A stretch of DNA of 64,000 nt. Source: [Mycobacterium] nativiensis. Lineage in GTDB: Bacteria; Actinomycetota; Actinomycetes; Mycobacteriales; Mycobacteriaceae. The notes below the pieces were generated by a model. The model saw nothing but the letters and a program-made list of their open reading frames with translations. It searched no databases and was not told the DNA's origin. Where the stretch lies: contig NZ_CP083986.1 of NCBI RefSeq assembly GCF_020172685.1, forward strand, positions 1,340,630-1,404,629, written 5' to 3'. The position numbers were made by a program, and so were the translations under genes. Shown one piece after another: positions 3,870 to 22,924 of this stretch (position 1 is its first letter; every line of letters starts with the position of its first letter).

Positions 3870-3885
3870 GGAACAAAACTTTGGT
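3870..3885. promoter_or_regulatory. Putative operator, site F of the shared 16-bp motif
   Basis: GGAACAAAACTTTGGT. It matches the cluster consensus (GGAACARATATTTGGT) with changes in the centre and lies just upstream of the mycofactocin-type SDR. I found no convincing -35/-10 pair here. Confidence 0.5.
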
Positions 3886-3914
3886 AGCGAACCCGCGGGA
3901 TCGCGCTGCCCGGT

Positions 3915-5207
3915 CTAACTGCGCTCCGCGGCGCCGCGGACCAGGGTGTCGCGGGCCAGGATCAACGCGGCACGAGTGCCCTGCGCCCGCACGATGTTCT
4001 CCGGAATCCACAGCAGGTCCATCACGCAACGCGACAGCATCGCCATGGAGGGGGCATCGACCCGGATGTCACCGGACTTGGTTCCCTCGGACAGCAGCGA
4101 CTTGAGCTGCCGTAGCCGGGTGGTGAACGCCAGACCGGGATTGGGCGTGTCGGGTGGGGAATGACGCATCCAGGCGAGTTGGATCTTCCACTCGTCCGGG
4201 AACTGTTCCAGGGCATTGATATTGATCCAGCTCAGCGCGTCGAGCTTCTCGATCGGTGTGGCGTCGGCCCGCAGGGCGGCCGCGAACCCGCCGCCGGCCT
4301 TGGTGCCGAATGACATCATGATCGAAGCCAGCAGCTCATCCTTCGAGCCGATCAGCCGGTAGACCGTCCCGGTCCCCATCCCCGCTGCGGAAGCGATATC
4401 GCGGACGGTGGTGACCTCGTAGCCTTTGCTGCCGAACTCGGCGCGGGCCACCGCGCGGATGTGTGCGGCCTTGTCGTCCTCCGCCGGTTGGTCGTCAGTC
4501 CAGGTCGTGATCGCCTCTTCTGCCGCAGCGAACGCGGGGGAGCGATCCAATTCCACATCGCTGTACGGCCGAGTGGCCAAGCCCTCCAACATGATGCGGC
4601 TGAGCACCGCCGCCGTCTGGTCAGCGGCCGACTTGTGCCTGATGACGTCGAGACCGACGTGCATCATCGACTGACAGATCCGGTCGGACAGCGTCGGCAG
4701 ATCGATCTCGGGGCGGATGTAACCGCTCCACCGCGCGGCCCGCAGCGTCTGCAGCATCGCTCGCTGCGCGTCGGTGGGCGGCTCCTGAAGCAGCTTGACC
4801 AATTCGGGGTTCGCGCTGGGCGCCTCATAGAACGACATCTGCAGGGCGGCGCGATGGTCGACCGCGCAGCGCGCGATCGCCGAACCCAGTTCCACGATCG
4901 AGTCGGCGACCGGTTGGGAACCCAGCTCGTCCAACCGCTCATCCGCCAGGTCGCCGATCCGCTCCAGATCGGCGTGGTAGCGCCGGACCAACTCGACCAG
5001 GATGGCTTCCTTGGAGTCGAAATGGTGGTACAGGCTGCCGGGCAGGATGCCCGCCGCGTCGGCGATCTCCTGCAGCGAGGTCCGCAGACCCGAGGAGGCG
5101 ATCAGCGTGGCGGCGGTCTGCAGGATCTCGGTGCGGCGTGAACCATCGTCATAGCCGCCGGCGCGATTCGCGGAAGTTCCCGCTCCGGCTGACTTTTGGC
5201 GCCCCAC
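3915..5207 (-). CDS. Two-domain TetR-family transcriptional regulator (Mce3R-like architecture)
   Basis: About 430 residues, twice the usual TetR length. There are two complete TetR DNA-binding helix-turn-helix domains. The first is RTEILQTAATLIASSG...TSLQEIADAAGILPGSLYHHF; the second, near the middle, is AHIRAVARAEFGSKGY...TVRDIASAAGMGTGTVYRLI. Each is followed by a ligand-domain-like helical segment. Tandem TetR proteins are known in mycobacteria, the best example being Mce3R, repressor of an mce operon. I take GTG at 5207 as start because GGAGGAG precedes it; an ATG at 5252 is the alternative. A motif copy (site E) lies upstream, which suggests autoregulation. It is the best candidate regulator of the cluster, by inference. 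Confidence 0.88.
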   Translation of the reverse strand: MGRQKSAGAGTSANRAGGYDDGSRRTEILQTAATLIASSGLRTSLQEIADAAGILPGSLYHHFDSKEAILVELVRRYHADLERIGDLADERLDELGSQPVADSIVELGSAIARCAVDHRAALQMSFYEAPSANPELVKLLQEPPTDAQRAMLQTLRAARWSGYIRPEIDLPTLSDRICQSMMHVGLDVIRHKSAADQTAAVLSRIMLEGLATRPYSDVELDRSPAFAAAEEAITTWTDDQPAEDDKAAHIRAVARAEFGSKGYEVTTVRDIASAAGMGTGTVYRLIGSKDELLASIMMSFGTKAGGGFAAALRADATPIEKLDALSWININALEQFPDEWKIQLAWMRHSPPDTPNPGLAFTTRLRQLKSLLSEGTKSGDIRVDAPSMAMLSRCVMDLLWIPENIVRAQGTRAALILARDTLVRGAAERS

Positions 5208-5256
5208 CGCTCCTCCACTGCTCCTGTGATGAGCCGGGATCGACCCGAGCATCCAG

Positions 5257-5272
5257 CGACCGAATGTTTGGC
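5257..5272. promoter_or_regulatory. Putative operator, site E of the shared 16-bp motif
   Basis: CGACCGAATGTTTGGC, closest to site B at the yrbE promoter. A -10-like TAGCGT lies on the minus strand at 5276-5281, so the predicted transcription start of the two-domain TetR gene would fall inside the motif. That geometry fits autorepression. Confidence 0.5.
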
Positions 5273-5325: not shown

Positions 5326-6612
5326 TCACGTTCCGGTCGGCAGCTTTGCGGCGAGATCCAAGACGGTGACCGTGTCCGTCCCGGTCTTCTTCAGCCGTTG
5401 CGAGGAGCGATAGCCCAGGTCCACATCGCGTGCCTGCGCTCGCAGCGCCCCGACGGTGAGCTGCTGTCTGGGCAGCTTCCCGAACATGTCAAAGGAGAAG
5501 AGCCGCAGCGCGTTCTCATGCGTGATCTTGTTGATCTCGTCCTCGGGCACACCCTTGAGATAGCCGGCGAGCGACTCGGGGGCCAACGGCCACGTCGAAT
5601 CCGAGTGGGGGTAGTCGCACTCCCAGGTGATCATGTCGAGGTTGAGCTTGTGCCGGCTCTCGACGCCGAAGCCGTCGTCGATGAAGCAGGTCACAATCCG
5701 CTCCAGGAACACCTCGCTGGGCAGCTTGTCGCCGAAATCCTGGTGGGTCCAGGCACGGTGCATCTTGTAGACCCGGTCGACGCGCTCCAAGAAGTACGGA
5801 ATCCAGCCGATGCCGCCCTCGGACAGTGCGAAGGTCAGGTCGGGAAACTTGCGCAGCGTCGGTGACCAGACCAGGTCCGCCGCCGCATTGACGATGCTCA
5901 TCGGCTGCAACGTGATCATCGTGTCGACGGGGGCGTCGATCGAGGTGATCACGACCGACGACGATGAGCCGATGTGCAGGCAGACGACGGTGTTCTCGTC
6001 ACTGCAGGCCTGCCAGAACGGATCCCAATGCGGGTCGTGCAGCGAGGGATACTCGAGCTTGGTGGGGTTCTCCGAGAAGGTGACGGCGTGGCAGCCCTTC
6101 TTGGCCACCCGCCGGACCTCGTCGGCCATCAGTTGGGGATCCCAGATCGGCGGCAGCGCCAGCGGGATCATCCGCCCCGGATAGGTGGCGCACCACTCGT
6201 CGATATGCCAGTCGTTGTACGCGCGCAGCACGGCCAGGCCGAGGTCCTTGTCCTTGGCCCGCGCGAAGTACTGTCCGCAGAACTGCGGGTACGAAGGGAA
6301 GTTCATCGCAGCCGCGACGCCGTTGACATTCATGTCGCGGATCCGCTCGTGAATGTTGTAGCAGCCTTCCCGAATCTCGCTCAGTTTGGTCGGTTCGGCG
6401 CCGTACTCGTCCGGTGGTCGGCCGGCGACCGCATTGAGGCCGACGTTGGTGGCCTCCTGGCCCTCGAAGACCCAGGCGTCGGTGCCGTCGGCCCGCTGGA
6501 TCAACTTGGGCACGTCGTCTTTGTACTTGTCGGGAATGTGGCCGTCGAACATGTCCGGTGGTTCCACGAGATGATCGTCGACGGAGACGAGGACGAAGTC
6601 GTCCAGCTGCAT
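5326..6612 (-). CDS. Amidohydrolase family protein (ACMSD-like metal-dependent hydrolase/decarboxylase)
   Basis: A 428-residue protein of the amidohydrolase-2 superfamily, starting MQLDDFVLVSVDDHLVEPPDMF. The VDDHLVEP motif replaces the usual HxH of the first barrel strand, as in many mycobacterial members. VVCLHIGSSS and a WECDYPHSDSTWP segment near residue 315 supply the later metal-binding His and catalytic Asp. The family includes decarboxylases and C-C or C-N hydrolases; the substrate is unknown. AAGGAG sits 6 nt before the ATG. It has its own strong promoter with an overlapping copy of the cluster motif, so it is probably co-regulated with the mce operon but starts a separate transcript. 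Confidence 0.88.
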   Translation of the reverse strand: MQLDDFVLVSVDDHLVEPPDMFDGHIPDKYKDDVPKLIQRADGTDAWVFEGQEATNVGLNAVAGRPPDEYGAEPTKLSEIREGCYNIHERIRDMNVNGVAAAMNFPSYPQFCGQYFARAKDKDLGLAVLRAYNDWHIDEWCATYPGRMIPLALPPIWDPQLMADEVRRVAKKGCHAVTFSENPTKLEYPSLHDPHWDPFWQACSDENTVVCLHIGSSSSVVITSIDAPVDTMITLQPMSIVNAAADLVWSPTLRKFPDLTFALSEGGIGWIPYFLERVDRVYKMHRAWTHQDFGDKLPSEVFLERIVTCFIDDGFGVESRHKLNLDMITWECDYPHSDSTWPLAPESLAGYLKGVPEDEINKITHENALRLFSFDMFGKLPRQQLTVGALRAQARDVDLGYRSSQRLKKTGTDTVTVLDLAAKLPTGT

Positions 6613-6680: not shown

Positions 6681-6710
6681 ACTGTACGCGCGGAACAGAT
6701 ATTTGGTCAA
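6681..6710 (-). promoter_or_regulatory. Promoter of the amidohydrolase gene with overlapping operator (site A)
   Basis: On the minus strand, TTGACC (6705-6710) and TACAGT (6681-6686) are 18 bp apart, a good housekeeping-sigma promoter. The 16-bp motif GGAACAGATATTTGGT (plus-strand reading, 6692-6707) fills the space between them and overlaps the -35 box. A protein bound there would block RNA polymerase. Confidence 0.7.
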
Positions 6711-6720: not shown

Positions 6721-7416
6721 TCAGCCGGTGATCGGAAGGAATTCCGGTGCGATCAAGTCGCCTACCGCCGCCCACGGGACGGTCACGATCTTGAGCCCGC
6801 GGCCGAATTGGACTTCGGGAATCTGCAACGCAATACCTTCAGAGGTGGGGATCCAGTGCTTGAAGTTCACATCGACGGGGGCGAACTGGCCGGCGCGCCG
6901 CCAGGTTCGCAGCTCGGTCGGCGAGGCGACGGTGGTCACCTGGGCTTCCAGCTGCTCGCCGAGGCGCGTCAAACCTGCTGTCTTGTCGCGGAATAGGTTG
7001 TCCCAGGTGATGACGATGCCGCTGCGGGTGTCGCAGACGACGCTGCCGAGGCTGTGCATCGGCATATGTGGCTCGGCGGTGTTGTAGACCCCGGTGAACA
7101 CTTCGGAGACCGTGATGGCCCACGTCCTCAATGTTCCGGTTGCGTCGAAGGTCCAGGGCCGTCGGGTTGATCCGTCCCACATCGCTTGCGTGACGGCGCG
7201 GTTCGCTTCGGCATCGATATGTTCGTTGATGGCATCCGCCGTCGGTGAATCGGCGGCCCCGAGGCGTTGGTAGTGCACCGTCGCGGTTCCCAGGCCGTCG
7301 GGACTGGCCGCGGAGATCACCGCTTCGGAGGTTTCGGCCCGGGCCACGTCCGCGAACGCGGTGCCGCCCAGCGTGAGCAGCACCAGTATCAGTGCGGCGA
7401 GCCTTGTGACGTTCAC
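6721..7416 (-). CDS. Secreted MPT64/RsiV-like (DUF3298) protein
   Basis: A 231-residue protein with a clear Sec signal peptide (VNVTRLAALILVLLTLGGTAFA). The mature part resembles the DUF3298/RsiV fold of the secreted antigen MPT64: MPMHSLGSVVCDTRSGIVIT, then WDNLF and, near the C-terminus, VNFKHWIPTSEGIALQIPEV. It starts at GTG 7416, overlapping the mceF stop by 4 bp, so it is translationally coupled as the last gene of the mce operon. In M. tuberculosis mpt64 also lies close to the mce3 operon. Function is not established; an envelope accessory of the Mce complex is an inference. Confidence 0.8.
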   Translation of the reverse strand: MNVTRLAALILVLLTLGGTAFADVARAETSEAVISAASPDGLGTATVHYQRLGAADSPTADAINEHIDAEANRAVTQAMWDGSTRRPWTFDATGTLRTWAITVSEVFTGVYNTAEPHMPMHSLGSVVCDTRSGIVITWDNLFRDKTAGLTRLGEQLEAQVTTVASPTELRTWRRAGQFAPVDVNFKHWIPTSEGIALQIPEVQFGRGLKIVTVPWAAVGDLIAPEFLPITG

Positions 7417-8696
7417 GGCGGGTCCGGGGGCAGTCGGACCGGCAGCGGTGTCCCGCCGAACGGCGTGAGCAGGGTGACGGGGTCGGAGGGAACCGGGTCT
7501 GCCTGGGTTTCGGGGTCATAGCCCGGCGGCGGACCGGCGGTGTCGTCTCCGGGCGGGCGTGGTGCGTTGCGGGCGCCGCGGACCAGGACCGATGGATCGG
7601 GGTTGTTGCAGTAGGTGTACAGATACGGCTCGGGATAGTTCGGCAGCGCCGGCGGCGGCGCCGGCAGCCCGTAGTCGCAGCTGTATCGGGGATACAGGTC
7701 GATGATCACCCACACGGCCCCGTCGCGCACTACACTGCTCAACGCCTCCACCGCCGAACCGCCGCGATTGGAGTTGACGACCTCGGTGAGGGCGGGCAGT
7801 CGGTCGGATGACATCTGTGCGGTGGTGGCGAGATTGCCGAGCAGCTTGACCATGGTGTCGGAGTTGTCGTCGATGATCTTGTCCAGCACCGTGAGTGGGC
7901 GGCCGCCGTTGTCGACCAGCGTTCGGTATCCGCCATCCATCGAACGGGCGCCGCGCATAATGCCCTGCAGGTTGTCCGAGGCCTGAACCAGACCGGCGTT
8001 GCTGTCGACGACGGTGGTCAACACGGTTCGGCTGGTGCGCAGAATGCTCACGGTCTGGGGAAGTACCTCCTCGAGGGTCGATATCAGGAACGCCCCACCG
8101 TCGAGCAGCGCCGCCAGCTTGGCCGGTCCCTGATTCGACACCCGAAGTTCGGTGGTGATCGCTGCCAGTTTCTGTGGATCCACTTGAGCCAGCAGGCCGT
8201 TGGCATCTCCCAACAGCTGGGCCAGTGACACCGGCACGGCGGTGCTGTCCTCATCGATGACGGCACCGTTGGTCAGGGCCGGCCCGCCGGCCTGCTCGGG
8301 CCGGAAGTCCAGGTATTGCTCGCCTGCCGCTGACAGCGCTGAAACACGAACGTGGCTGCTACGCGGAACCCGTGTCCGGCTGTCGATCTCGATCGAGGCC
8401 ACCACACCGGTGTCGCCGAGTCGTACCGCGTTGACGCGCCCGATCCGCACGCCCCGAAGCGTGACATCCTGGTTGGGCAGCAGGCCCCCCGACTCGTGCA
8501 GCCGCACCTGCACCGAGATGGTGGAGCGAACGGGGCTGATGCCCAGCGTCCCGCCGACGATGTAGACCGTCACGAGAATCAGCGTCACCACGATGCCGGC
8601 CACCGACACCACGACCCGGTGGCGCCGCAACAGGCCCGCCGAATCGACCAGCAGTTGTGCCGGCAGTTCCAGCAGGCGCAGGGTGCGGTTGGTCAT
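7413..8696 (-). CDS. MCE family protein MceF
   Basis: A 427-residue substrate-binding subunit of an Mce lipid importer. A membrane anchor (VVSVAGIVVTLILVTVYIV) is followed by the MlaD/MCE domain at about residues 45-120 (VRLHESGGLLPNQDVTLRGV), then a long helical segment and a Pro-rich tail. The ATG at 8696 overlaps the mceE stop by 4 bp, and the gene is sixth in mceA-F order. Mce proteins are thought to form a periplasm-spanning hexameric tube that feeds lipid to the YrbE permeases. I give no paralogue number, because mce numbering cannot be settled from sequence reading alone. Confidence 0.93.
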   Translation of the reverse strand: MTNRTLRLLELPAQLLVDSAGLLRRHRVVVSVAGIVVTLILVTVYIVGGTLGISPVRSTISVQVRLHESGGLLPNQDVTLRGVRIGRVNAVRLGDTGVVASIEIDSRTRVPRSSHVRVSALSAAGEQYLDFRPEQAGGPALTNGAVIDEDSTAVPVSLAQLLGDANGLLAQVDPQKLAAITTELRVSNQGPAKLAALLDGGAFLISTLEEVLPQTVSILRTSRTVLTTVVDSNAGLVQASDNLQGIMRGARSMDGGYRTLVDNGGRPLTVLDKIIDDNSDTMVKLLGNLATTAQMSSDRLPALTEVVNSNRGGSAVEALSSVVRDGAVWVIIDLYPRYSCDYGLPAPPPALPNYPEPYLYTYCNNPDPSVLVRGARNAPRPPGDDTAGPPPGYDPETQADPVPSDPVTLLTPFGGTPLPVRLPPDPP

Positions 8697-9826
8697 CGGG
8701 GCTGATGTTCGGGTCCATAGATGCGGCTCAACAACAGATTCCACTCGTATCGGAGGCTGCCGATCATGGCGTGCCAGTCGGTACCGTCGGCGCCGTGTGA
8801 TCCGGGGTCGCCGGGGTAGTTCTTATCGGGCAGTGCGCCGAACGCCAACTGGGTGACGGTTCCGACCGCGTGGACGTTGGGCCCGCTGGTGATGTGGGTG
8901 AATGCGGGGATCATCCGATTCCACTTGTTCAGGCTCAGTTCGGGGTCGGTGGAGATCTGGTTGAAGACATCAGAGAGCCGGTTGAGATCGTGCAGGGTGC
9001 TGCGCTGATCGGTTCCCCGCATCGACGGGAATCGGCCGAGCTGATCGGTGATCCGGGCGGCCGCGGAGATCATGTCGGCGACGTTCGTGGCGTTGTCGGC
9101 CAGTGTTTCCGTCGCCGGTGCGGCCGCCGCCAGCGCCGCATTGAGGGTGTCCCGGCGATTCGAGAGGGTGACCGCCAGGTCCGAGGTGTTGCGCAGCGCG
9201 GTGTCGATCTGCTCCGTGCGGGCGTTCAGCCGCGACAGCAGTGCATTGGAATTGTGCAGTAGTGCGGCGACTTTCGAACCGCGCCCGCCCATCGCCGTGC
9301 CCGCCCCGTTGACCGTCGAGACCAGCCGGCGGATCGCGCCGCCGTTGACCAGCAGAGCAGCCGAGCTCAGCACATCTTCGATGGTCGCGGCCGAGGTGGT
9401 GTGGTCCAGGTCGATGGTGTCGCCGTCGCGCAGGCGAGCGGCATCGGCAGTCGCATTCGGTCCGCGCCGCACGGCGATGAAGATGTCGCCGAGCGGAGTC
9501 GCCGACCGCAACTCGGCGATGGTGTCGGTGTACAGGGGGGCGCCGGCACTGATCTTCATGGCCACGCGGGCCGAGAAATTCTGAGCGCTGATGGATTCGA
9601 CCTCGCCGATGTCGGCGCCGTTGAGTTTGACCTTGGCTTTGACGGGAAGATTCAACGCATTGGCGAACACGGCTGACAGCGCGATGTCCCCGTCGATTCG
9701 GCCCGGTGCGGGCAGGGGAATGCTCGCCAGTCCACCGGCGCAACCGGCCAGCGTGACCGCCAATGCGGCGGCGAGCGCGGATCGGAGCACCCGACGAACC
9801 CAGGCCGTCCCGTGGCGTCGCCTCAT
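8693..9826 (-). CDS. MCE family lipoprotein MceE
   Basis: A 377-residue Mce subunit and the lipoprotein of the set. The signal peptide ends in a lipobox, VTLAGCAGG, with the acylated Cys near residue 28. The MCE domain follows (VFANALNLPVKAKVKLNGADIGEV). The ATG at 9826 overlaps the mceD stop by 4 bp (ATGA). Position five in the mceA-F order matches lprK/lprM/lprN-type genes of M. tuberculosis mce operons. The frame is also open far upstream, but that extension lies antiparallel to nothing and has no start of its own that fits, so I exclude it. Confidence 0.93.
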   Translation of the reverse strand: MRRRHGTAWVRRVLRSALAAALAVTLAGCAGGLASIPLPAPGRIDGDIALSAVFANALNLPVKAKVKLNGADIGEVESISAQNFSARVAMKISAGAPLYTDTIAELRSATPLGDIFIAVRRGPNATADAARLRDGDTIDLDHTTSAATIEDVLSSAALLVNGGAIRRLVSTVNGAGTAMGGRGSKVAALLHNSNALLSRLNARTEQIDTALRNTSDLAVTLSNRRDTLNAALAAAAPATETLADNATNVADMISAAARITDQLGRFPSMRGTDQRSTLHDLNRLSDVFNQISTDPELSLNKWNRMIPAFTHITSGPNVHAVGTVTQLAFGALPDKNYPGDPGSHGADGTDWHAMIGSLRYEWNLLLSRIYGPEHQPR

Positions 9827-10959
9827 TTCTCGGCCCCTGCCATACGTTCCAGCAGTCCCGTCATTCCCTCGACGAAGAAGGTGGTGCCGAACTGGGGCGC
9901 ATTGTCGGCGACAGTGCCGGTGGCACAGCCCAGATCCTTGATCCCGGCGAGATTGCAGATCTCCTTGGCCATCTGACCGTTGAGCATCAGTTTGTCCAGG
10001 GTGGGATGCAGGCGCAGGGTGTGGCCGCTGGGATCCACCGCGTTGTAGATGTTGGTGCCCACCAGCGGAAGGACGTCGAGGATCTCTTCGAGTTGACGGC
10101 GACTGTCGGTCATGACGGTCGTGAGCTGACCGAAGTCGCCGACGGTGCCTTTGAGCTTGTCCCGGTTGTTCTCCAACAGCCGGGTGGCCTGGTCGAGAAT
10201 CTGATTCGCCTTGGCGCCGGTGCTGCCCGCGCCGAGATTCTCGACGGCGACGATGTCGCTGAGCGCGCGGACGTTCGACCCGAACTCCCTGATCGCGGTG
10301 TCGTTGTCGGCGGCCGCCTGGGTCAGGTCGGCGAGGCTGGCCGCGATCGACTCGATGGTCTTGTGGGTGGCCGCCCCGTTGTCCGAGGTGAGACGCAAGG
10401 CCTGGGAGAGCTGATCGAGGGCGGCCTTGATGTCGGGTCCGCTGCCGGTTGAGATCTTCGCGCCGATTCCGATCAGGTCGGCCAATGGGCCGTGGCCCTC
10501 GCCGTCGCCGCTCAGGGCGCGAGAGAGCTTGTCCGCCATGGCCAGTGTTCGATCGAACTCGACCGGAGTTCGGGTGCGGGTAAGGCCCACGATGTCCCCG
10601 TCGCGCAGCGTGGGCCCGCCACCGTAGGCCGGAGTCAACTCGACGTGCCGGTCGGTCAGGATGGACGTGGCGACGGTGACCGCCTGAACGTCGGCGGGGA
10701 TGTCGACGTCCTTGTCGATGACCATCGTCACCTGGACGTAGCTGTCTTTGGGCGCGATCTCGGTGACCTTGCCGATCGGCATGCCCAGCACCGACACCGC
10801 GTTGCCGACGTAGAGTCCCACCGCGTCCTCGAACTGTGCGGTGACGGTCAGGGGTCGGTGGTGTTCGCCGGAGATGAAGTGCCAGATGAGGACTCCGGCG
10901 AGGGCGACGACGGCCATCCCGGCCGCGATCGATCTGGCGCGGGTGATTCGACGGCTCAT
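9823..10959 (-). CDS. MCE family protein MceD
   Basis: A 378-residue Mce subunit. The N-terminal anchor (ARSIAAGMAVVALAGVLIWHF) precedes the MCE domain at about residues 38-115 (FEDAVGLYVGNAVSVLGMPIG), then a long alpha-helical stretch with heptad-like spacing. The C-terminus carries two Cys (CNLAGIKDLGC). I place the start at ATG 10959 (MSRRITRARS), which overlaps the mceC stop as ATGA; the frame is open further upstream but there it overlaps mceC deeply. Translational coupling throughout the operon suggests equal subunit production. Confidence 0.92.
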   Translation of the reverse strand: MSRRITRARSIAAGMAVVALAGVLIWHFISGEHHRPLTVTAQFEDAVGLYVGNAVSVLGMPIGKVTEIAPKDSYVQVTMVIDKDVDIPADVQAVTVATSILTDRHVELTPAYGGGPTLRDGDIVGLTRTRTPVEFDRTLAMADKLSRALSGDGEGHGPLADLIGIGAKISTGSGPDIKAALDQLSQALRLTSDNGAATHKTIESIAASLADLTQAAADNDTAIREFGSNVRALSDIVAVENLGAGSTGAKANQILDQATRLLENNRDKLKGTVGDFGQLTTVMTDSRRQLEEILDVLPLVGTNIYNAVDPSGHTLRLHPTLDKLMLNGQMAKEICNLAGIKDLGCATGTVADNAPQFGTTFFVEGMTGLLERMAGAEK

Positions 10960-12038
10960 CCCGGCAACCTCGCCGGGTCCGGCGGCGGCCAACCCGGGAA
11001 CGGATCCGCGGTCGGTTTGCAGTCGGTGAAGTACTGCGCCAGGCCGAACTGTTTGCCACGTCCGCTGAGCGCGCACATCCACGAGTCGACGAGCATTCCG
11101 GCCGGCAGATTGATATCGAGTGCGGTGCCGCTGCCGCTGGCGTTGGCCAGATTGCGGAAGGTCACCGGCATCACCTGCAGGGTGTTGCGGACCAGGGCGT
11201 CATGGGAGGCGGCCATTTGCGCGAACTGCTGCATATTGGCAAGAAGGTCGTTGATCGCGGGGTCGTCGTCAAGAATGATCTTCAACGTGTCGACCAGCGC
11301 GGTGGTGCCTTCGAGCAGGCGGTGCACGGCGGCCTGCCGAGCGGTGACCGTCTGCAGCAGATCCCGGCCCTGCAGGACCAGTGCGCCCAGGTCGGCCTTC
11401 TGGTCGCGGACCACCCCGGTGATGGTGTCCACGTTCTTCAGCAGTGATCCCATCTGATCGCGTCGCGCCGCGATCACGGCCGCCAGGGACCTGACGTTCT
11501 GCAGTGCCTCCGGCAGCGCCTCGGGTACTCCCGAGAGGCCGTTGCTCATCTCCGACATCGATGCGGCGATGCGGTCGGCATCCACCTGCTCGAAGGTGCT
11601 GGTCGCGTCGGCCAGCGTGTCCTGCAGGTTGTACGGGACCGCCGTATTGGCCAATGTGATGGTGCGGGAGGGGAGTTCGCCGCCGCCGGCGGGGGACAAC
11701 TCGATGTAACGCCGCCCCAGCAGGGTGGTCAGCTTGATCGCCGCGCGTGACGCGTCGCCCACCCGCACCCCGTTGTCGACGGTGAACTTCACCGTGACGT
11801 GGTCGCCGGTCAGGGCGACGTCCTTCACGGTGCCGACTTCGATACCCGCCACGGTGACCTGATCACCCGGACTGAGCTGGGCGGCCTGGGCGAACTCGGC
11901 CTGATACCCGATGCGGCTCAGGGACAGCTTGCCGATGCCGACCAGGGCCATGATGACCACGGCCAGCACCGCCACCGAGATGGTTCCAACCCAGATCGTG
12001 TTATAGCTCTCGATCGGGCGCTTGGGCCGAAGCGACAT
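10956..12038 (-). CDS. MCE family protein MceC
   Basis: A 360-residue Mce subunit with an N-terminal anchor (TIWVGTISVAVLAVVIMALVG) and the MCE domain (FAQAAQLSPGDQVTVAGIEV) near residues 45-125. It ends in a Pro-rich segment. Seven nucleotides separate it from mceB upstream and four overlap mceD downstream. Third position in the operon and domain content identify it as the C subunit of a presumed heterohexameric lipid-transfer tube. Confidence 0.92.
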   Translation of the reverse strand: MSLRPKRPIESYNTIWVGTISVAVLAVVIMALVGIGKLSLSRIGYQAEFAQAAQLSPGDQVTVAGIEVGTVKDVALTGDHVTVKFTVDNGVRVGDASRAAIKLTTLLGRRYIELSPAGGGELPSRTITLANTAVPYNLQDTLADATSTFEQVDADRIAASMSEMSNGLSGVPEALPEALQNVRSLAAVIAARRDQMGSLLKNVDTITGVVRDQKADLGALVLQGRDLLQTVTARQAAVHRLLEGTTALVDTLKIILDDDPAINDLLANMQQFAQMAASHDALVRNTLQVMPVTFRNLANASGSGTALDINLPAGMLVDSWMCALSGRGKQFGLAQYFTDCKPTADPFPGWPPPDPARLPG

Positions 12039-12045
12039 CGGGTGC

Positions 12046-13086
12046 CTACCTGCAGATCGGGGAGTGTTGGACGATGTTGCCCGGTGAGGCGAGCTTGACG
12101 GTGCCGGGGATCACCCGGCCCAGGAACGCGAAGACGGTGGAGTTGATGTCGCAGATATAGCCGTCGATGTAGCTCCCGTTCTGGGTTGCGCGAGCGAGAC
12201 CCTTGAGAACCAGCACCAGATTGGCGCCGTAGAAGGCGAATCGCTCACGTCCCTCGCCGGTGAGATGACCGACGAATCCCGGCTCGCGCAAAAGGAATTC
12301 GTGAAACTCGGGATAGACGGCGCTCAGAATCGTCGACAGCCGATCCGTCGCCTGGGTGATCGAACCGGTCGACGCCACCAGTTCGTCGCGCCGGCCGGCC
12401 AGCGTCGCCAACGCGGCGCGGGAATTCCGGATGACGGACTGCAGGTCGCGATCCTGGCGAGCCAGGACCGCGGTGACCTCGTCGAGGTCGGCGATCACAT
12501 CGCCGAGCACCTGGTCGGGCCCGGCGAGTGATTCGGCCAGCGCCGAGGTCTGACTGATCAGGGTCACCACCGATGCGGAATCACCTTGCAGCGCCGCGAT
12601 GATGCCGCCGGTGAGATTGTCCACCTGCCGCGGGCTCAGCAGGGTGAACAGCGGTTCGAACCCACTGAGCAGATGGGAGATGTCGAACGAGGGGCTGGTG
12701 CGCTCGACCGGGATGCTGCCCCGGTCCGGTAATGCCTTGCGGAACTCCGACGTTCCGGGGGCGAGTCCCAGATAGCGTTGGCCGATGATGTTCTGATACG
12801 TCACCGATGCGGTGGTGTCGTCGTAGAGGATGTGGCTCTTCGGCACTCGGAACGTGACCTTGGCGAGTGTGCCGTCCAAGTCGACTCTGTCGACGCGTCC
12901 TACCCGCACCCCCGCGGTACGGACATCGTCGCCGCTGTGCAGCCCGGATACGTCGGTGAACATGGCGTGGTAGATGTTCGTCGGACCGCTGACCTCGCGG
13001 CGCAGTGTGACGAACACCAGATACGTCGCGGTGATGGAGAGCGCCAGGAACAGGCTCAACCCGATCAGCGACTTGCGGTATCTCAT
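12046..13086 (-). CDS. MCE family protein MceB
   Basis: A 346-residue Mce subunit starting MRYRKSLIGLSLFLALSITA, a single membrane anchor, followed by the MCE domain (MFTDVSGLHSGDDVRTAGVRV) and a helical C-terminal part ending ASPGNIVQHSPICR. ATG at 13086 overlaps the mceA stop by 4 bp. The reading frame continues upstream inside mceA but has no supported start there. Order and spacing place it in one transcript with the other mce genes. Confidence 0.92.
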   Translation of the reverse strand: MRYRKSLIGLSLFLALSITATYLVFVTLRREVSGPTNIYHAMFTDVSGLHSGDDVRTAGVRVGRVDRVDLDGTLAKVTFRVPKSHILYDDTTASVTYQNIIGQRYLGLAPGTSEFRKALPDRGSIPVERTSPSFDISHLLSGFEPLFTLLSPRQVDNLTGGIIAALQGDSASVVTLISQTSALAESLAGPDQVLGDVIADLDEVTAVLARQDRDLQSVIRNSRAALATLAGRRDELVASTGSITQATDRLSTILSAVYPEFHEFLLREPGFVGHLTGEGRERFAFYGANLVLVLKGLARATQNGSYIDGYICDINSTVFAFLGRVIPGTVKLASPGNIVQHSPICR

Positions 13087-14528: not shown

Positions 14529-14530
14529 GC

Positions 14531-15388
14531 TCAGCCACCGAACCTCGCGCCGGCGTTGACGCCCCACATCGCCATTGTCAGCAGCGCGTTCAAGATGATC
14601 ACCACCGTGATGGTGGCCCGCATCGCGTGGCCGGCGGCCACGCCGACCCCTTGCGGCCCGCCCGCGGCGAAATAGCCGTAGTAGCACTGGATCATGGCGG
14701 CGAAGAAGATGAAGATGACTCCCTTGAGGGTCGCGTAGAAAACATCACGCCCGCTGCTGAACAGCGAGAAGTAGTGCTCGTAGGTTCCCGCGGAGGTATG
14801 AGCGATGATGCCGACCACCACCTGCGCGGACAGGTATGCCGCCGCCAGGCAGACCAGGAACAGTGGGATGGCGGCCAGCACCGACGCCGCGACCCGGGTG
14901 GTCACCAGGTAGGGAATGGGTTTGATCGCCAGCGCATCCATCGCGTCGATCTCTTCGGCGATGCGCATGGCACCCAACTGGGCGGTGAATCGGCAGCCCG
15001 CCTGCGTGGTGAAGGCGATGGCGATCATCACGGGCACCAACTCGCGGGTCGAGCCCCACGAGGACAGCAGGCCGGTGGCCGGGCCCAGGCCCAAGAGGTT
15101 CAGCGCGTTGTAACCCTCGATCGCGAGCAGCGCGCCGGCGGTGATACCCAACACCACCGACACACCCATAGTTCCGCCGCCGACGACGAGCGCCCCGTTG
15201 CCCCAGGCGATATCGGACAGATTGCGGACGAACTCGCGACGGTAGCGAGCCAGCATGACGGGCACCGCGAACACGACGCGACAGATGAAGTCCAGAATGT
15301 GGCCGGCCCTCGCCACCGGCACCCACACGACCTCGGTCGCTCGAAGGACGTGCTGGAACACCCGGGGGCGGTGGACGGCGACGGTCAT
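14531..15388 (-). CDS. YrbE/MlaE-type ABC permease B
   Basis: A 285-residue integral membrane protein of the MlaE family, with the conserved segment FTTQAGCRFTAQLGAMRIAEE followed by IDAMDALAIKP, the family signature. Six or so hydrophobic helices are visible, among them ALVVGGGTMGVSVVLGITAG and VAASVLAAIPLFLVCLAAAY. It pairs with YrbEA to form the permease of the Mce lipid importer; the ATPase (MceG) is normally encoded elsewhere and is not in this window. Six nucleotides separate it from yrbEA. Confidence 0.94.
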   Translation of the reverse strand: MTVAVHRPRVFQHVLRATEVVWVPVARAGHILDFICRVVFAVPVMLARYRREFVRNLSDIAWGNGALVVGGGTMGVSVVLGITAGALLAIEGYNALNLLGLGPATGLLSSWGSTRELVPVMIAIAFTTQAGCRFTAQLGAMRIAEEIDAMDALAIKPIPYLVTTRVAASVLAAIPLFLVCLAAAYLSAQVVVGIIAHTSAGTYEHYFSLFSSGRDVFYATLKGVIFIFFAAMIQCYYGYFAAGGPQGVGVAAGHAMRATITVVIILNALLTMAMWGVNAGARFGG

Positions 15389-15394
15389 CTGCGT

Positions 15395-16156
15395 CTACAG
15401 GCTCGCTTTGGGAAAGAGCAGCAGATAGAGCTGACTCATTCCGACGTTGACGATCATCAACAGCAGAATCGATTCGACCACCGCGGCATTGACCGAGTTG
15501 GCAACCCCGGCCGGCCCGCCATGGGTGGCCAAGCCCTTATGGCAGGCCACTACCGCCACGATCGCCCCGAAGGCGATGGCCTTGGCCAGGGCCAGGACGA
15601 GGTCATCGACGGTCGCGAACGACGCGAAGGTTGCGACGAAGGATCCCGGGGTGCCGTCCTGGACGAACACGTTGAACAGGTAGCCGACGAAGAAGCCGGC
15701 GCAGGTCGCCAGCCCGGTCAACGCGACGCCGACCAGGATCAGTGCGGCGAAGCGCGGAACGACGAGCCGGCGGACCGCCGAAACGCCCATCACCTCCATC
15801 GCGTCGATCTCTTCGCGCATGGTCCGGGAGCCGAGGTCGGCGCTCACCGCCGAGCCGACTGCGGCGGCAAGCAATATCGCCGCCACCAGGGGAGCGCCCT
15901 GGCGGATCACCACCAGTCCGTTGGCGGCACCGGACAGCGACTCGGCGCCCACCTGCCCGGCGAGTACGGCGAATTGAATCGACAGCGTGACCCCGACGGG
16001 GATGGTCACCAGCAGAGTCGGCAGCAACGCGGTACCCGCCATGAACGCCGCCTGTTTTACGAACTCCGACACCGCGAAGCGTCCGGTGAACAGGTCGATG
16101 AACAGATACTGGACGGTGCGCAGGCCAAGGGTCGTCTGACCGCCCACGGTTCCCAA
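15395..16156 (-). CDS. YrbE/MlaE-type ABC permease A (start uncertain)
   Basis: At least 253 residues, MlaE-family permease with AVGSAVSADLGSRTMREEID followed by AMEVMGVSAVRRLVVPRFA, the cytoplasmic signature. It is first of the eight yrbE/mce genes. TTG at 16156 is the nearest accepted start codon, but the frame remains open upstream. It encodes a plausible segment (EVGAWVRSYTRSHPLQALG) reaching a CTG at 16261 that has GGGGAGGG five bases before it. Starting there gives 288 residues, equal to YrbEB. The operon promoter with an operator copy lies at 16387-16442. Confidence 0.9.
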   Translation of the reverse strand: MGTVGGQTTLGLRTVQYLFIDLFTGRFAVSEFVKQAAFMAGTALLPTLLVTIPVGVTLSIQFAVLAGQVGAESLSGAANGLVVIRQGAPLVAAILLAAAVGSAVSADLGSRTMREEIDAMEVMGVSAVRRLVVPRFAALILVGVALTGLATCAGFFVGYLFNVFVQDGTPGSFVATFASFATVDDLVLALAKAIAFGAIVAVVACHKGLATHGGPAGVANSVNAAVVESILLLMIVNVGMSQLYLLLFPKASL

Positions 16157-16386: not shown

Positions 16387-16442
16387 GGACCGAATATTTG
16401 GTTTCGTCAGCGGAGCCTATCGTGCAGTCGGGGTGTGGTCAA
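16387..16442 (-). promoter_or_regulatory. Promoter and operator (site B) of the yrbE/mce operon
   Basis: On the minus strand, TTGACC (16437-16442), a 17-bp spacer and TAGGCT (16414-16419) form a near-ideal promoter, predicting a transcript start near 16407. The motif GGACCGAATATTTGGT lies at 16387-16402, immediately downstream of that start. On the minus strand it reads ACCAAATATTCGGT, a dyad (ACC-N-AATATT-N-GGT). A repressor at that position would block promoter clearance. The leader to the first gene is 145-250 nt, depending on the start codon used. Confidence 0.75.
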
Positions 16443-18145: not shown

Positions 18146-18175
18146 CGCTTTCGATCTGCCGAAGGGATGCGACAC

Positions 18176-19375
18176 ATGACAGGTGCCGAAGCGGTCGCGT
18201 TGTACTACGACCCGTTCGACCACGACATTGACGACGATCCGTACCCGGTGTGGAAGCGGATGCGTGAGGAAACACCGTTGTACTACAACGAAAAGTACAA
18301 CTTTCATGCGCTGAGCCGGTACGAGGACGTCGCCCGCGAACTGCCGAACTGGCAGACCTACCGGTCCGGTCGCGGGACCACCGCCGACATTCTGTTCAAC
18401 AACATCGAGGTCCCGCCGGGAATCCTGCTGTTCGAGGATCCGCCCCTGCACGATCTGCACCGCAGCCTGCTCTCGCGGGTGTTCACCCCGCGGCGGATGC
18501 TGGCCGTGGAACCACTGGTGCGCGACTTCTGTGTCAGGGAGCTGGACCCGCTCGTCGATGCCGGTGGCTTCGACTTCATCGCGGATCTCGGGGCGATGAT
18601 GCCGATGCGGACCATCGGTTACCTGCTGGGCATCCCGGAGAAGGACCAGGAGGCGATCCGGGACCGAGCCGGTTCCTTCATCGAAGTGGCGGCCGGCGGC
18701 GAACCCGGCGACATCAGCCAGAAGATATTCTCCGACACCATCGTCATGTTCGCCGAGTACATCGAATGGCGTGCCAACCATCCGTCCGACGATCTGATGA
18801 CCGACCTGTTACGGGCCGAGATCGAGGATGCCGACGGCACCCGACGTCCGTTGTCGCGTACCGAGGTGCTCGCCTATACCGCAATGATCGCCGGCGCCGG
18901 CAACGAGACCACGGCCCGGCTGATCGGTTTCATGGCACAGCTGCTGGCGGATCACCCCGATCAACGCCATGAGCTCCGCGCCGATCCGAGCCTGATCCCC
19001 GGCGCTATCGAGGAGACGCTGCGCTACGAGCCCCCGTCGCCGGTGCAGGCGCGCTACGTCGCCCGGGACGCCGAGCTCTACGGTCGCCTGATTCCGGAAG
19101 GGTCGTTCATGCTGCTGCTCAACGGATCCGCCAACCGCGACCACCGGCAGTTCGCCGACCCGGATCGCTTCGACATTCACCGCGAGGGCGGTCATCTCAG
19201 TTTCGGCAAGGGCGTGCACTTCTGCCTCGGTTCGGCGCTGGCCCGGTTAGAGGCCCGGGTTGCCTTCGAGGAGGTGCTCAAGCGTTGGCCCGATTGGGAA
19301 GTCGACTACACAGGCGCGCAACGCGCGCACACCGCAAGTGTGCGGGGCTGGGCGAGGTTGCCGGTGGTCACCTGA
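18176..19375 (+). CDS. Cytochrome P450 (first of three in the cluster)
   Basis: A 399-residue soluble bacterial P450. It has the I-helix oxygen-activation motif AGAGNETT, the K-helix EETLR (ExxR) and the heme loop FGKGVHFCLG with the axial Cys near residue 350. Such enzymes hydroxylate substrates with electrons from a ferredoxin, which is not encoded nearby. I use the ATG at 18176 because AAGGGA is well spaced before it; an ATG at 18167 is too close to that site. The gene follows the TetR gene by 30 bp and converges with the next SDR, the ends overlapping by 8 bp. The P450 family number cannot be read safely. Confidence 0.94.
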   Translation: MTGAEAVALYYDPFDHDIDDDPYPVWKRMREETPLYYNEKYNFHALSRYEDVARELPNWQTYRSGRGTTADILFNNIEVPPGILLFEDPPLHDLHRSLLSRVFTPRRMLAVEPLVRDFCVRELDPLVDAGGFDFIADLGAMMPMRTIGYLLGIPEKDQEAIRDRAGSFIEVAAGGEPGDISQKIFSDTIVMFAEYIEWRANHPSDDLMTDLLRAEIEDADGTRRPLSRTEVLAYTAMIAGAGNETTARLIGFMAQLLADHPDQRHELRADPSLIPGAIEETLRYEPPSPVQARYVARDAELYGRLIPEGSFMLLLNGSANRDHRQFADPDRFDIHREGGHLSFGKGVHFCLGSALARLEARVAFEEVLKRWPDWEVDYTGAQRAHTASVRGWARLPVVT

Positions 19376-20294
19376 TTCCGATCCGGTCGCAGACCTCGAA
19401 CACCTCCTCGAAGATGGAGGCCGGAACGGTGAACGGTTCGGTGGCGGACACCTGCGCCAGATGCGTCGCGATATCGTCGGCCGTGGGGTCGCGGTCGGAT
19501 CCGGCAAGCCAGCCCTGACCGAGACCGACGAAGACGCGCGCGAACCGGCCGGCGCAGGCCGAGTAGTTCTGATGGGTGAGAGCGCAGTCGCGACTGGCCA
19601 GGTACACGACCATCGGTACTACCAGCTCGGGCCGGATCGCCCGGAGGAATCCAGCTTCTTCGATCGCCTTCGGGTCGTCGACCGTATCGGTGACCATTCG
19701 GGAAAACCCGAACGGCAGCACGGTATTGGAGCCGATCCCGTGCGGGGCGCCCTCGATCGCGATGATGTTGGACAGTCCCACCAGCCCGGCCTTGGCGGCG
19801 CCGTAATGGGCTTCCCGCGGTTGGCCGAACATGCCGCCCGACGATGAGATGAACACGAACCGCCCATAACCCTGGTTCTTCATCACCCGGTAGGCGGGCC
19901 GACTCAGATAGAACGCGCCGTCCAGATGCACCGCCAGCATGCGTCGCCAGTCATCGTCGGACATCTCCTCGAACGCAATGCTGTTGAAGATGCCCGCATT
20001 GCTGATCACGGCGTCGAGCCGGCCGAATCGCCGGACGGCGGTCGCGACGATGGCTTCACCGCCTGCGGGGCTGTCCACCGACTCATAGGAGGCGACGGCT
20101 GTCCCGCCGGCGGTGGTGATCTCGTCGACCACCAGGTCGGCGATGGCACTGTCCGCGCCCTCGCCGTGCATCGACCCGCCCAGGTCGTTGACCACCACCG
20201 AGGCGCCGCGGTTGGCCAGCTCGATCGCGTAGAGCCGGCCCAGACCCCGGCCCGCTCCGGTGACGACGACGACCTGGCCCTCGAAATCGATCAC
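19368..20294 (-). CDS. SDR family oxidoreductase
   Basis: A 308-residue short-chain dehydrogenase: TGAGRGLGRLYA cofactor loop, NDLGGS acidic/NAD-specific turn, SNAGIF, catalytic Ser in ISSSGGM and Tyr-Lys in HYGAAKAG. The fold and the C-terminal extension (about 50 residues after the core) resemble the hydroxyacyl-CoA dehydrogenase domain of multifunctional enzyme 2 and the related SDR at 28857. Start is GTG 20294. It is transcribed divergently from the VWA gene, from a promoter pair that shares one operator (site C). Confidence 0.9.
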   Translation of the reverse strand: MIDFEGQVVVVTGAGRGLGRLYAIELANRGASVVVNDLGGSMHGEGADSAIADLVVDEITTAGGTAVASYESVDSPAGGEAIVATAVRRFGRLDAVISNAGIFNSIAFEEMSDDDWRRMLAVHLDGAFYLSRPAYRVMKNQGYGRFVFISSSGGMFGQPREAHYGAAKAGLVGLSNIIAIEGAPHGIGSNTVLPFGFSRMVTDTVDDPKAIEEAGFLRAIRPELVVPMVVYLASRDCALTHQNYSACAGRFARVFVGLGQGWLAGSDRDPTADDIATHLAQVSATEPFTVPASIFEEVFEVCDRIGIR

Positions 20295-20317: not shown

Positions 20318-20365
20318 TTGACTGTGGCCGAAGTGGACTCTACGGTGGAACAGATATTTGGTCAA
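20318..20365. promoter_or_regulatory. Divergent promoter pair with one shared operator (site C)
   Basis: Plus strand: TTGACT (20318-20323), 17 bp, TACGGT (20341-20346), predicting a transcript start near 20353 for the VWA gene. Minus strand: TTGACC (20360-20365), 17 bp, TAGAGT (20337-20342), for the SDR gene. The motif GGAACAGATATTTGGT at 20347-20362 covers the plus transcript start and the minus spacer and -35 edge. One bound protein could silence both directions. Confidence 0.75.
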
Positions 20366-20384
20366 CCGGTGGATGGGGGAGTCC

Positions 20385-22058
20385 GTGACGGACCGCCACG
20401 AGCCTGCTGAGTCGCTGCAGCGCTGGAACATGTTGGTGTCGGCGTTATCCGGGCGTGCGATGAAGGTGGCCGCGGGAGAGGCCGGCCATCCCGCATGGAC
20501 CGACGGCAAGAGCGTCTTCGTCGACCCGGGCATCGACGCGGCCCACCAACTCGAGGCGGTGACCGTCCAGGCCTGCCTGTTGTCGGCCGGGAGTCTGGAC
20601 CCCGGCCTGGTGCGCAAGCTGAACCGGCGGCGCGGTCTGGCCGCCCGCTATCTCGCCGTCGAAGGGCATCGGGCGCTGGCCGCCAACGCCGAACTGTTGC
20701 CGCCTGCGGTGGTGTCCCTGATCGACCATTGCGTCGCGGCCCGCACCGATTCGCCGGCCGCATCGCTGATGCTGGCCGACGCTCGCGAGTTCTCACCGCA
20801 GTCGCCGGATGCCTTCGGGGTGATTCGGCCGCGAAAGTTGCTGGCCGAGAGCAGGAGCAGTGAGAGTCCGGGTGGTGACAAAACGCATCAGCCGCGCCAA
20901 CAGCACGCGCCGCTGGCCGACCTGGATGACAATGACGCCGACGCCGAGATGGACATGTTCTCCAGCCCGGTCGGCGGCAGCGGCGCGCTGGGCCGGCTGG
21001 TCGCCAAGATGCTCGAGGTGACCCGCCGGCTGGGAGGCAACGGGCCGCCCGGGGCAGACGCGCCCACCCATAAGACCCGGTCCGGCGTGCGCGGCGGCGG
21101 AAGCGTGGTGTCTTCGGCCGGTGTCGGGACCCTCGAGGACGACACCGCCGCGGGCGGGGCCGTCGGGACTACCTATCACGAATGGGACGTTCATCGCCGC
21201 AGCTACCGGCAGAACTGGTGCACCGTATTGGAAGTGATGCCGAACGCAGCCGGCGAACCACCGGTGCGGCCGGCGGACCACGGATTGCGGCGACCGCTGG
21301 CGCGGCTCGGCGTGGGCTTGGACCGCTACCACCGGCAGGCCCAGGGCGACGACGTCGATATCGATGCGGCGATCGAGGCCCGGATCGAATTGCTGGCCGG
21401 ATCGGCGCCCGACGAGGCGGTCTACCTGGACAGCCTGCGTCGCCGACGGGATCTGTCGGTGCTGATTCTGCTGGATGTCTCCGGTTCGGCAGCCGAACCC
21501 GGCACTGTCGGTCAGACTGTGCACGAACTGCAGCGCGCGGCGGCCGCCGCGTTGGCCACCGCGCTGCATGAGCTGGGGGATCGGCTGGCACTCTACGCCT
21601 TTCACTCGCAAGGCAGAACCGCGGTGCATGTCACCCCGGTGAAGCGCTTCGACGACGCCCTGGACGCGCGCGCCATGATGCGGTTGAACAGCCTCAAGCC
21701 CGGCGCCTACTCGCGACTGGGTGCTGCGATCCGGCACGGCTCGGACGTCTTGGAGCGCCGTGGTGGCACACCGCGCCGCCTGCTGGTCGTGGTCTCGGAC
21801 GGGCTGGCCTACGACCACGGCTATGAGCGGGTGTACGGCGCCGCCGATGCCCGACGTGCCCTGGCCGAGGCGCGCCGGCGGGGCATGGGGTGCCTGTGTC
21901 TGACGGTCGGGGCGGCCACCGATGTCGACGAGCTGCGCCGGGTGTTCGGCAGTGCCGCACACGCGACCATTCCGCGGCTTGACCAGCTCAGCCGCGAGAT
22001 CGGACCGCTGTTCCGGTCCGCGCTGCGCTCGGCCGACTTGCGACGACGGGTCGCATGA
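20385..22058 (+). CDS. VWA-domain protein (NorD/CoxE/CobT-like)
   Basis: A 557-residue protein with a von Willebrand factor A domain in its C-terminal third. The metal-ion-dependent adhesion site DVSGS is at about residue 364, with VVSDG further on. The N-terminal part is helical and acidic, as in NorD and CobT. Such proteins work with a MoxR/CbbQ-type AAA ATPase, encoded next, to activate or load metal into a target enzyme. I choose GTG 20385, preceded by GGGGGAG, over a TTG at 20358 that lies within a few bases of the predicted transcript start. Its client here is unknown. Confidence 0.88.
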   Translation: MTDRHEPAESLQRWNMLVSALSGRAMKVAAGEAGHPAWTDGKSVFVDPGIDAAHQLEAVTVQACLLSAGSLDPGLVRKLNRRRGLAARYLAVEGHRALAANAELLPPAVVSLIDHCVAARTDSPAASLMLADAREFSPQSPDAFGVIRPRKLLAESRSSESPGGDKTHQPRQQHAPLADLDDNDADAEMDMFSSPVGGSGALGRLVAKMLEVTRRLGGNGPPGADAPTHKTRSGVRGGGSVVSSAGVGTLEDDTAAGGAVGTTYHEWDVHRRSYRQNWCTVLEVMPNAAGEPPVRPADHGLRRPLARLGVGLDRYHRQAQGDDVDIDAAIEARIELLAGSAPDEAVYLDSLRRRRDLSVLILLDVSGSAAEPGTVGQTVHELQRAAAAALATALHELGDRLALYAFHSQGRTAVHVTPVKRFDDALDARAMMRLNSLKPGAYSRLGAAIRHGSDVLERRGGTPRRLLVVVSDGLAYDHGYERVYGAADARRALAEARRRGMGCLCLTVGAATDVDELRRVFGSAAHATIPRLDQLSREIGPLFRSALRSADLRRRVA

Positions 22059-22077
22059 ACAGAAGGGTAGGAACAAC

Positions 22078-22878
22078 ATGGCAACTGCGGTCGGAGGTCC
22101 GCGCCCCTACTACGTGTCGGTCGGCAACGAGGAGCATGTCTTCAAAGCGGCTTACCGGCAAGGGTTGTCGGTCGTCCTCAAGGGCCCCACGGGCTGTGGG
22201 AAAACCCGATTCGTGGAGGCCATGGCCCATGACCTGGACCGGCCGCTGATCACCGTCGCCTGCCACGACGACCTGACGACGGCGGATCTGGTCGGCCGGT
22301 TCCTGCTGCGGGGCGGCGAGACCGAGTGGGTGGACGGGCCGCTGACGCGGGCTGTGCGCGAGGGTGCGATCTGCTACCTCGACGAAGTGGTGGAGGCGCG
22401 GCAGGACACCATCGTGGTGCTGCACCCGCTGGCCGACCACCGGCGCCAGCTGCCGATCGACCGGCTGGGGCTGACGCTGGATGCCGCACCGGGGTTCGGG
22501 CTGGTGATGTCCTACAACCCGGGGTATCAAAGTGTGCTCAAAGACCTCAAGGACTCCACTCGTCAACGCATGGTCGCCATCGAATTCGGGTTTCCGGCAG
22601 GCGATGTCGAGGAGAAGATCGTCGCATGCGAAGCAGGTGTCGATCATGAGCGCGCCGCAAAACTGGTGCGGTTGGGGCAGGCGATCAGGCGGGTGGAGAC
22701 CGGCGGATTGCGGGAGGTTGCTTCGACACGCGTGTTGATCGCTGCCGGGCGGCTGATCGCTGAGGGGCTGGCTCCCCGCGAAGCCGGCCGGGCTGCCATC
22801 GCGGGCCCGCTCACCGATGACTCGCTGGCGACCGCCGGCCTGATGGAAATGATCGAGGTGTACCTGGCCGATCGATGA
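22078..22878 (+). CDS. MoxR-group AAA+ ATPase, CbbQ/NirQ/NorQ family
   Basis: A 266-residue ATPase. Walker A GPTGCGKT lies at residues 36-43, Walker B is AICYLDEVVEA, and SYNPGYQ is the sensor-1 region. The order, spacing and length match CbbQ/NorQ proteins, which partner VWA proteins such as CbbO and NorD to remodel enzymes and assist metal-centre activation. It follows the VWA gene by 19 bp with an AAGGGTAGGA ribosome-binding region. No canonical client (nitric oxide reductase, RuBisCO, CO dehydrogenase) is present nearby. Confidence 0.93.
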   Translation: MATAVGGPRPYYVSVGNEEHVFKAAYRQGLSVVLKGPTGCGKTRFVEAMAHDLDRPLITVACHDDLTTADLVGRFLLRGGETEWVDGPLTRAVREGAICYLDEVVEARQDTIVVLHPLADHRRQLPIDRLGLTLDAAPGFGLVMSYNPGYQSVLKDLKDSTRQRMVAIEFGFPAGDVEEKIVACEAGVDHERAAKLVRLGQAIRRVETGGLREVASTRVLIAAGRLIAEGLAPREAGRAAIAGPLTDDSLATAGLMEMIEVYLADR

Positions 22879-22924
22879 TTGACGGTCGGCCGACTGCACG
22901 CTAGGGTCGGAACAAATATTAGGT
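22879..22924 (+). promoter_or_regulatory. Promoter and operator (site D) upstream of the LivJ-like gene
   Basis: TTGACG (22879-22884), a 17-bp spacer and TAGGGT (22902-22907) predict a transcript start near 22914. The motif GGAACAAATATTAGGT (22909-22924) covers it. The -35 box begins right after the stop codon of the AAA gene. The layout is the same as at site C on the plus strand: the operator sits directly on the start point. Confidence 0.75.

Follow-up and report, generated by a model that had tools for sequence, protein, structure and literature searches.

A double-TetR repressor encoded in the 64,000-nucleotide stretch of the [Mycobacterium] nativiensis genome analysed here (the window) very probably acts on 16-bp operators in front of the transcription units listed below, from which it would be released by a hydrophobic inducer. 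The evidence consists of the motif itself, its conservation, its co-occurrence with the regulator, a promoter-like geometry at four sites and a predicted fold, from which we infer binding, repression, the assignment of half-sites, the ligand and the pathway. The sites, all given on the plus strand, are the following:

3870..3885 (+), site A, GGAACAAAACTTTGGT, with the start of the mycofactocin-type SDR gene (2948-3826, -) 43 bp downstream
5257..5272 (+), site B, CGACCGAATGTTTGGC, with the ATG of the double-TetR gene (5252, -) 4 bp downstream
6692..6707 (+), site C, GGAACAGATATTTGGT, with the amidohydrolase gene (5326-6612, -) beginning 79 bp downstream
16387..16402 (+), site D, GGACCGAATATTTGGT, with the yrbE/mce operon (-) starting about 230 bp or more downstream
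20347..20362 (+), site E, GGAACAGATATTTGGT, between divergent SDR (-) and VWA (+) genes
22909..22924 (+), site F, GGAACAAATATTAGGT, 5' of the LivJ operon

The genes concerned are:

2948..3826 (-), mycofactocin-coupled SDR (TIGR03971, 332.7 bits, cut-off 300)
3915..5252 (-), double-TetR regulator of 445 aa with two TetR_N domains and with GTG 5207 as a possible later start
5326..6612 (-), amidohydrolase (Amidohydro_2)
6721..16156 (-), yrbE/mce operon, with an MlaE permease (14531-15388) and MlaD/Mce proteins
15395-16156 (-), YrbEA, named by its position in the operon, without a Pfam scan
19368..20294 (-), SDR beside site E
20373..22058 (+), VWA-domain protein, its start read as ATG 20373 from the sequence
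21922..22878 (+), MoxR/CbbQ-type AAA ATPase, possibly starting further inside this frame
22958..24090 (+), LivJ-type periplasmic binding protein, its start read as ATG 22958 from the sequence
24094..25233 (+), AveC-like protein
25001..26113 (+), SDR
26106..27662 (+), aldehyde dehydrogenase (nearest TIGR04284, 672.6 bits, below the cut-off of 775)
27649..28860 (+), cytochrome P450 (nearest solved sequence CYP125MRCA, 8vxi)
28674..29768 (+), SDR
29788..31053 (+), CYP150A6-like P450 (6dcd, E 4.5e-190, full length)

The first-pass annotation had placed six copies of one motif at these positions, each upstream of a gene start. Each of the six sequences is found in place, neighbouring sites being 1.4 to 9.7 kb apart, and all six lie upstream of a gene, the first possible start being at least about 230 bp away in the case of D. 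Sites A, C, D, E and F differ by one or two mismatches from GGAACAAATATTTGGT, a pattern which, at up to three mismatches, had no match in 100 dinucleotide shuffles of the window. In the whole genome (one contig of 5,276,002 bp), five matches at two mismatches or fewer were found, all of them inside this cluster, and seven further ones, with exactly three mismatches, are scattered outside it; the reversed pattern, used as a control at up to three mismatches, gave two. The close matches are thus confined to the cluster and not spread over unrelated genes. The outside three-mismatch matches have been rejected for now as regulon members, since five of the seven fall in open frames of at least 80 aa and two overlap another palindrome; this frame test does not discriminate, because the cluster sites also sit in such frames. 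The loci of these last two matches, L008 and L009 (1501-1527; G000:C1, near 1930769 and 1945729), carry two copies of GGAGCAAATATCAGGTAATTACCTGATG, 15 kb apart, each containing the perfect palindrome ATCAGGTAATTACCTGAT; these palindromes are probably operators of another regulator.

A scoring matrix was built from 170 unique 56-bp contexts of relatives, sites too close to a locus end for full flanks being left out; its sharpness is overstated, since the source sites were picked by similarity to the consensus. The five strong sites score 33.9, 33.9, 31.6, 21.4 and 21.0 with it. Site B scores 7.5, whereas the best scores reached in ten simulated windows span 0.1-15.6, and in the window search it did not match GGAACAAATATTTGGT at up to three mismatches. 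Therefore, a sixth site could not be claimed from the sequence alone, and since B is missed by the threshold of the genome search, diverged sites elsewhere in the genome are possible.

Site B is rescued, as a candidate, by its conservation at the same position 5' of the TetR gene. It is recognisable there in 11 of the 15 relatives aligned (the six Mycolicibacter loci L113-L117 and L119, together with L118, L073, L074, L075 and L098), where a conserved GCTACCAGA block adjoins it; it is more diverged in L078 and L079, and absent from the alignment in L076 and L077, which have a weaker match 111 and 198 bp upstream. At the pattern threshold, B is also detected in G150 (sites at 7994, 9379, 10788, 21057, 24129 and 26688) and, on the other strand, in G149. 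Thus, the earlier statement that the regulator's own promoter has a copy stands in that an operator-like site, suggesting autoregulation, is kept upstream of the gene in relatives, but by sequence alone this copy is weak.

Conservation of the remaining sites in orthologous clusters is also found. Among named organisms, the closest relatives of the regulator come from Mycolicibacter: it is 95% identical to the protein of Mycolicibacter sp. MYC098 and 84-88% identical to those of M. nonchromogenicus, M. engbaekii, M. sinensis and M. senuensis. Sites A, C, D, E and F occur in the same order in six of the seven Mycolicibacter genomes searched by pattern, the counterpart of D lying between C and E with two to three mismatches; the seventh, M. 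longobardus (G154), has 13 matches arranged differently. Site A was found at the same place in six Mycolicibacter relatives among the 11 relatives aligned.

For a wider comparison, 74 regulator loci (L073-L146) were taken, 40 of them picked among genomes with a known regulator, most with a known motif, and 34 from a protein search; L147-L191, the 45 of 79 named protein-search loci that had distant matches only, were excluded from motif counts, and some genomes are in both sets. These 74 loci contain 181 matches at up to two mismatches, against none for the reversed pattern, with at least one site in 70 loci (30 of the 34 from the protein search alone) and none, at this threshold, in L132, L136, L139 and L146. 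With duplicates and truncated loci removed, 69 of the 74 were left, and in 48 of them the regulator gene is flanked by a site scoring 10 or more with a matrix made without that locus's own sites; of 207 random stretches taken from these loci, 14 have such a site. This compares two flanks (560 bp) with single 310-bp stretches, which may include true sites.

Two arrangements recur, namely SDR <- site -> VWA (28 contexts) and MoxR - site -> LivJ (30 contexts), the latter followed by AveC, SDR, ALDH and P450 genes. Gene content was judged within 20-kb stretches, and there an mce operon clearly related to that of the window is near the regulator in the six Mycolicibacter loci, L124 and L130 (at least 44% identity), more distant mce genes being near it in several other loci. 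The amidohydrolase is also present in L075, L096, L110, L124, L128, L130, L136 and L144. In L134 (a duplicate of L098), L137, L141 and L143, a site is found beside the regulator although the usual targets are missing from the stretch. Taking these loci together, the gene set first put forward holds for the SDR/VWA-MoxR and LivJ-AveC-SDR-ALDH-P450 units, which recur with their sites in many relatives, but the closely related mce operon is better regarded as a variable member of the predicted regulon.

Additional sites were seen in some relatives. A reverse-oriented one (GGAACAGATGTTTGTT-like) lies near the VWA-MoxR junction in L078-L082, L084, L085, L092 and others, sites at this junction amounting to 31 contexts in two neighbour classes; no such site is present at the junction of the window among the matrix-scan matches listed. 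In L113, L116 and L117, an extra GGAACAAATATTAGGT is located across the mycofactocin SDR, about 3 kb from site A, which suggests one more target unit, missing from the window.

The two-domain TetR had been named as the probable regulator, and across two samples of genomes the motif tracks it. Among 148 genomes of the genus (full-length double TetR defined by E below 1e-100, motif by up to one mismatch), the regulator is present in 92, the motif in 92, both in 91 and neither in 55 (Fisher p 1.8e-38, kinship being ignored); the reversed motif was found in none of the 148. The exceptions are G005, a fragmented draft (84% complete) with the motif and without a full-length regulator, and G121, with the regulator and without the motif at up to one mismatch, whose locus has two-mismatch sites. 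A double-TetR gene lies within 25 kb of 120 of the 141 motif matches listed (87 of 94 exact ones); of the remaining 21, 17 lie on a different contig, in some cases perhaps owing to an assembly break, and the others are far away. In G143, about 480 kb separate the regulator from the sole motif listed. The second sample, 249 genomes of the order, partly overlaps the first and was searched with a regulator cut-off of E up to 1e-60; here the regulator was found in 27, the motif in 26 and both in 25 (p 6e-31), with the reversed motif in two. Outside the genus, these figures are four, three and two: G363, with the motif only, may be a chance match, and in G189 a distance of 54 kb lies between the motif and the closest regulator gene of that contig. 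The co-occurrence is partly due to shared descent, the core target genes travelling with the regulator. Taken with the conservation of the sites, it supports the earlier suggestion that these scattered genes form one predicted system.

It was also observed that 11 of the 92 regulator-bearing genomes (G004, G007, G012, G018, G024, G043, G080, G090, G097, G134 and G136) have more than one full-length double-TetR gene (two or three each), the total over the 92 being 104, and that the exact motif occurs at the loci of two second copies, L102 and L104 (56% identity).

Regarding its structure, site B had been described as a dyad; the motif is dyad-like, but it is an asymmetric quasi-dyad and not a simple one. 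Its two halves differ consistently over the 170 contexts, and the proposed non-identical half-sites are GGAACARAT and, on the other strand, ACCAAAT. A reading as a palindrome only was rejected, since the forward matrix score exceeds the reverse one at the five sites with listed reverse scores (for C and E, 33.9 forward and 15.3 reverse). Among the five strong sites, D comes closest to a palindrome. Conservation is highest over a stretch of 16 contiguous bases; the flanks show a weaker signal (-10 to -1 and +16 to +19), interpreted as part of TTGAC/TAnnnT promoter-like elements.

The 14-bp core, A-A-C-A-R-A-T-A-T-T-T-G-G-T, leaves a small chance that the sites are operators of KstR2, or of a related TetR coded elsewhere, serving the same cluster. 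The motif has most of the 14-bp KstR2 skeleton given in the excerpted text of PMC3068626, core positions 1, 3, 4, 10, 12 and 14 fitting the KstR2 palindrome AnCAAGnnCTTGnT nearly without exception in the 170 contexts, and G005 carries the motif without a full-length double TetR. However, agreement with that palindrome falls to 69% at position 11 and 41% at position 5, and the KstR2-specific G (position 6) and C (position 9) are replaced, among these consensus-selected sites, by A (95%) and T (99%), and on this ground membership of the KstR2 regulon was rejected. Moreover, 55 of the 56 genomes without the double TetR also lack the motif, although KstR2 is described in the same excerpt as highly conserved among actinomycetes. 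Finally, L141, L143, L137 and L134 keep a site beside the double-TetR gene within stretches that lack the usual targets, which again argues against KstR2.

The claim that four sites overlap or abut -35/-10 pairs proved right for C, D, E and F. The spacer of a minus-strand pair, TTGACC (6705-6710)-18-TACAGT (6681-6686), is occupied by site C, and D is just past another such pair, TTGACC (16437-16442)-17-TAGGCT (16414-16419). Site E comes directly after a plus-strand pair, TTGACT (20318-20323)-17-TACGGT (20341-20346), and is also inside the spacer of a minus-strand one, TTGACC (20360-20365)-17-TAGAGT (20337-20342); F directly follows TTGACG (22879-22884)-17-TAGGGT (22902-22907) on the plus strand. 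In relatives, the consensus of 28 contexts for E and of 30 for F shows the same plus-strand elements, most of the other DNA around them not being shared. A clear promoter-like pair was not found at site A, and the sole promoter-like element at B is the conserved TGGTAGCGT beside it, extended -10-like and on the minus strand. The putative geometry at C to F is what a repressor excluding RNA polymerase would need.

It is very unlikely that the double TetR is mainly an activator, or that it works as two homodimeric readers (M1M1 and M2M2) with different sites. Some TetR-family proteins activate, and site D is far 5' of the first possible mce start, but at four of the six places the site overlaps or adjoins a core promoter-like element. 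In the excerpted text of PMC11667970, Mce3R of Mycobacterium tuberculosis (PDB 9b7y) is described as binding one non-palindromic operator as a single, asymmetric M1-M2 unit. The asymmetry of the motif argues in the same direction. That the sites are promoter parts rather than operators, with GGAAC as the -35 of an ECF-sigma promoter, is scarcely credible: GGAAC resembles ECF -35 elements, but at C to F the motif is inside the spacer or 3' of the -10 of TTGAC-N17/18-TAnnnT, occurs in both orientations relative to the gene, and is most strongly conserved over its 16 contiguous bases.

Returning to the double-TetR repressor, TetR_N is matched in two stretches of the window protein and in all 25 aligned proteins, this one included, and the predicted whole-chain fold is asymmetric, with an architecture as in Mce3R 9b7y. 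The recognition helix of the first DNA-binding domain (M1), GILPGSLYHHFDSKE, has two differences from that of KstR2, GILSGSLYHHFASKE, and the counterpart stretch in the second (M2) reads GMGTGTVYRLIGSKD; M1 may thus read the ACCAAAT side and M2 the GGAACARAT side. One polypeptide with two different DNA-binding domains, folded as an Mce3R-like asymmetric unit, would place each of them on one of the two non-identical half-sites. Without inducer, the bound repressor would cover the -35/-10 spacer or the transcription start and block RNA polymerase at its own gene, the SDR, the amidohydrolase, yrbE/mce, SDR/VWA-MoxR and LivJ-AveC-SDR-ALDH-P450; binding of a hydrophobic substrate or product would release it, so that uptake and oxidation genes are switched on together. 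A tentative extension, to which we give rather low credence, is that the operator is a hybrid, with a KstR2-like half for M1 and a diverged half for M2, its directionality being a product of the fusion, and that sites A to F are looped into a 19-kb domain under joint control. Such bridging is proposed because Mce3R dimerises, each unit on its own DNA.

The gene content fits a pathway for the uptake and stepwise oxidation of a hydrophobic, perhaps terpenoid- or sterol-like compound, with thiolase and enoyl-CoA hydratase genes further along in the window; the 6721-7416 frame of the yrbE/mce operon had no Pfam match. Apart from this, a plus-strand P450 gene (18167-19375) begins within the span of an uncharacterised frame on the minus strand (17381-18781). 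This minus-strand gene probably starts inside the listed frame, because several relatives match the two as separate genes.

The relevance of these results is that a double-TetR repressor outside Mce3R gains a defined candidate operator and a conserved predicted regulon, with non-tuberculous actinobacteria offering a simple system for testing them, and that uncharacterised genes of many mycobacteria (P450, mycofactocin-SDR, AveC-like, MoxR/VWA and mce) are joined in one predicted pathway. The match of the M1 and KstR2 helices and half-sites opens a route to asking how fused TetR proteins gain asymmetric DNA recognition; if the hybrid reading is true, a gene fusion would have made a symmetric repressor into a reader of directional sites.

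Among the literature matches listed, mostly judged by titles and beginnings of abstracts, none dealt with this cluster or motif or gave an operator or regulon for this double TetR; the comparison covered motifs available as text, the 11 new mycobacterial TetR motifs of PMC4482099 being given as logos, and the 15-mer motif letters had no literature match. With KstR2 (PDB 4w1u, 4w97), the M1 domain and its recognition helix share a resemblance, and most of the operator skeleton AnCAA-N4-TTGnT is common to both. KstR2, as the excerpt of PMC3068626 presents it, is a single-domain protein with a palindromic operator and cholesterol-utilisation targets, whereas here position 5 is A or G, position 6 is A and position 9 is T.

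With Mce3R, which according to the excerpt of PMC11667970 controls itself, an mce operon and lipid-metabolism genes, the likeness is in the two TetR units of one chain and the same predicted architecture. In contrast, identity in structural alignments is 17-18%, the window protein has G72 and H76 where Mce3R has the DNA-contacting R49 and R53, and the target genes differ. Also, by the same excerpt, two 25-bp sites of Mce3R, with 53 bp between them, are found at mce3, against one 16-bp core per promoter here. An orthologous relationship was not supported, the phmmer alignment being limited to the first DNA-binding domain of the query and R49/R53 not being conserved. Taking into account that the excerpt of PMC11667970 counts 204 predicted double-TetR proteins of actinomycetes, the kind of protein found here, this cluster would represent another double-TetR system beyond Mce3R, with a defined candidate operator.
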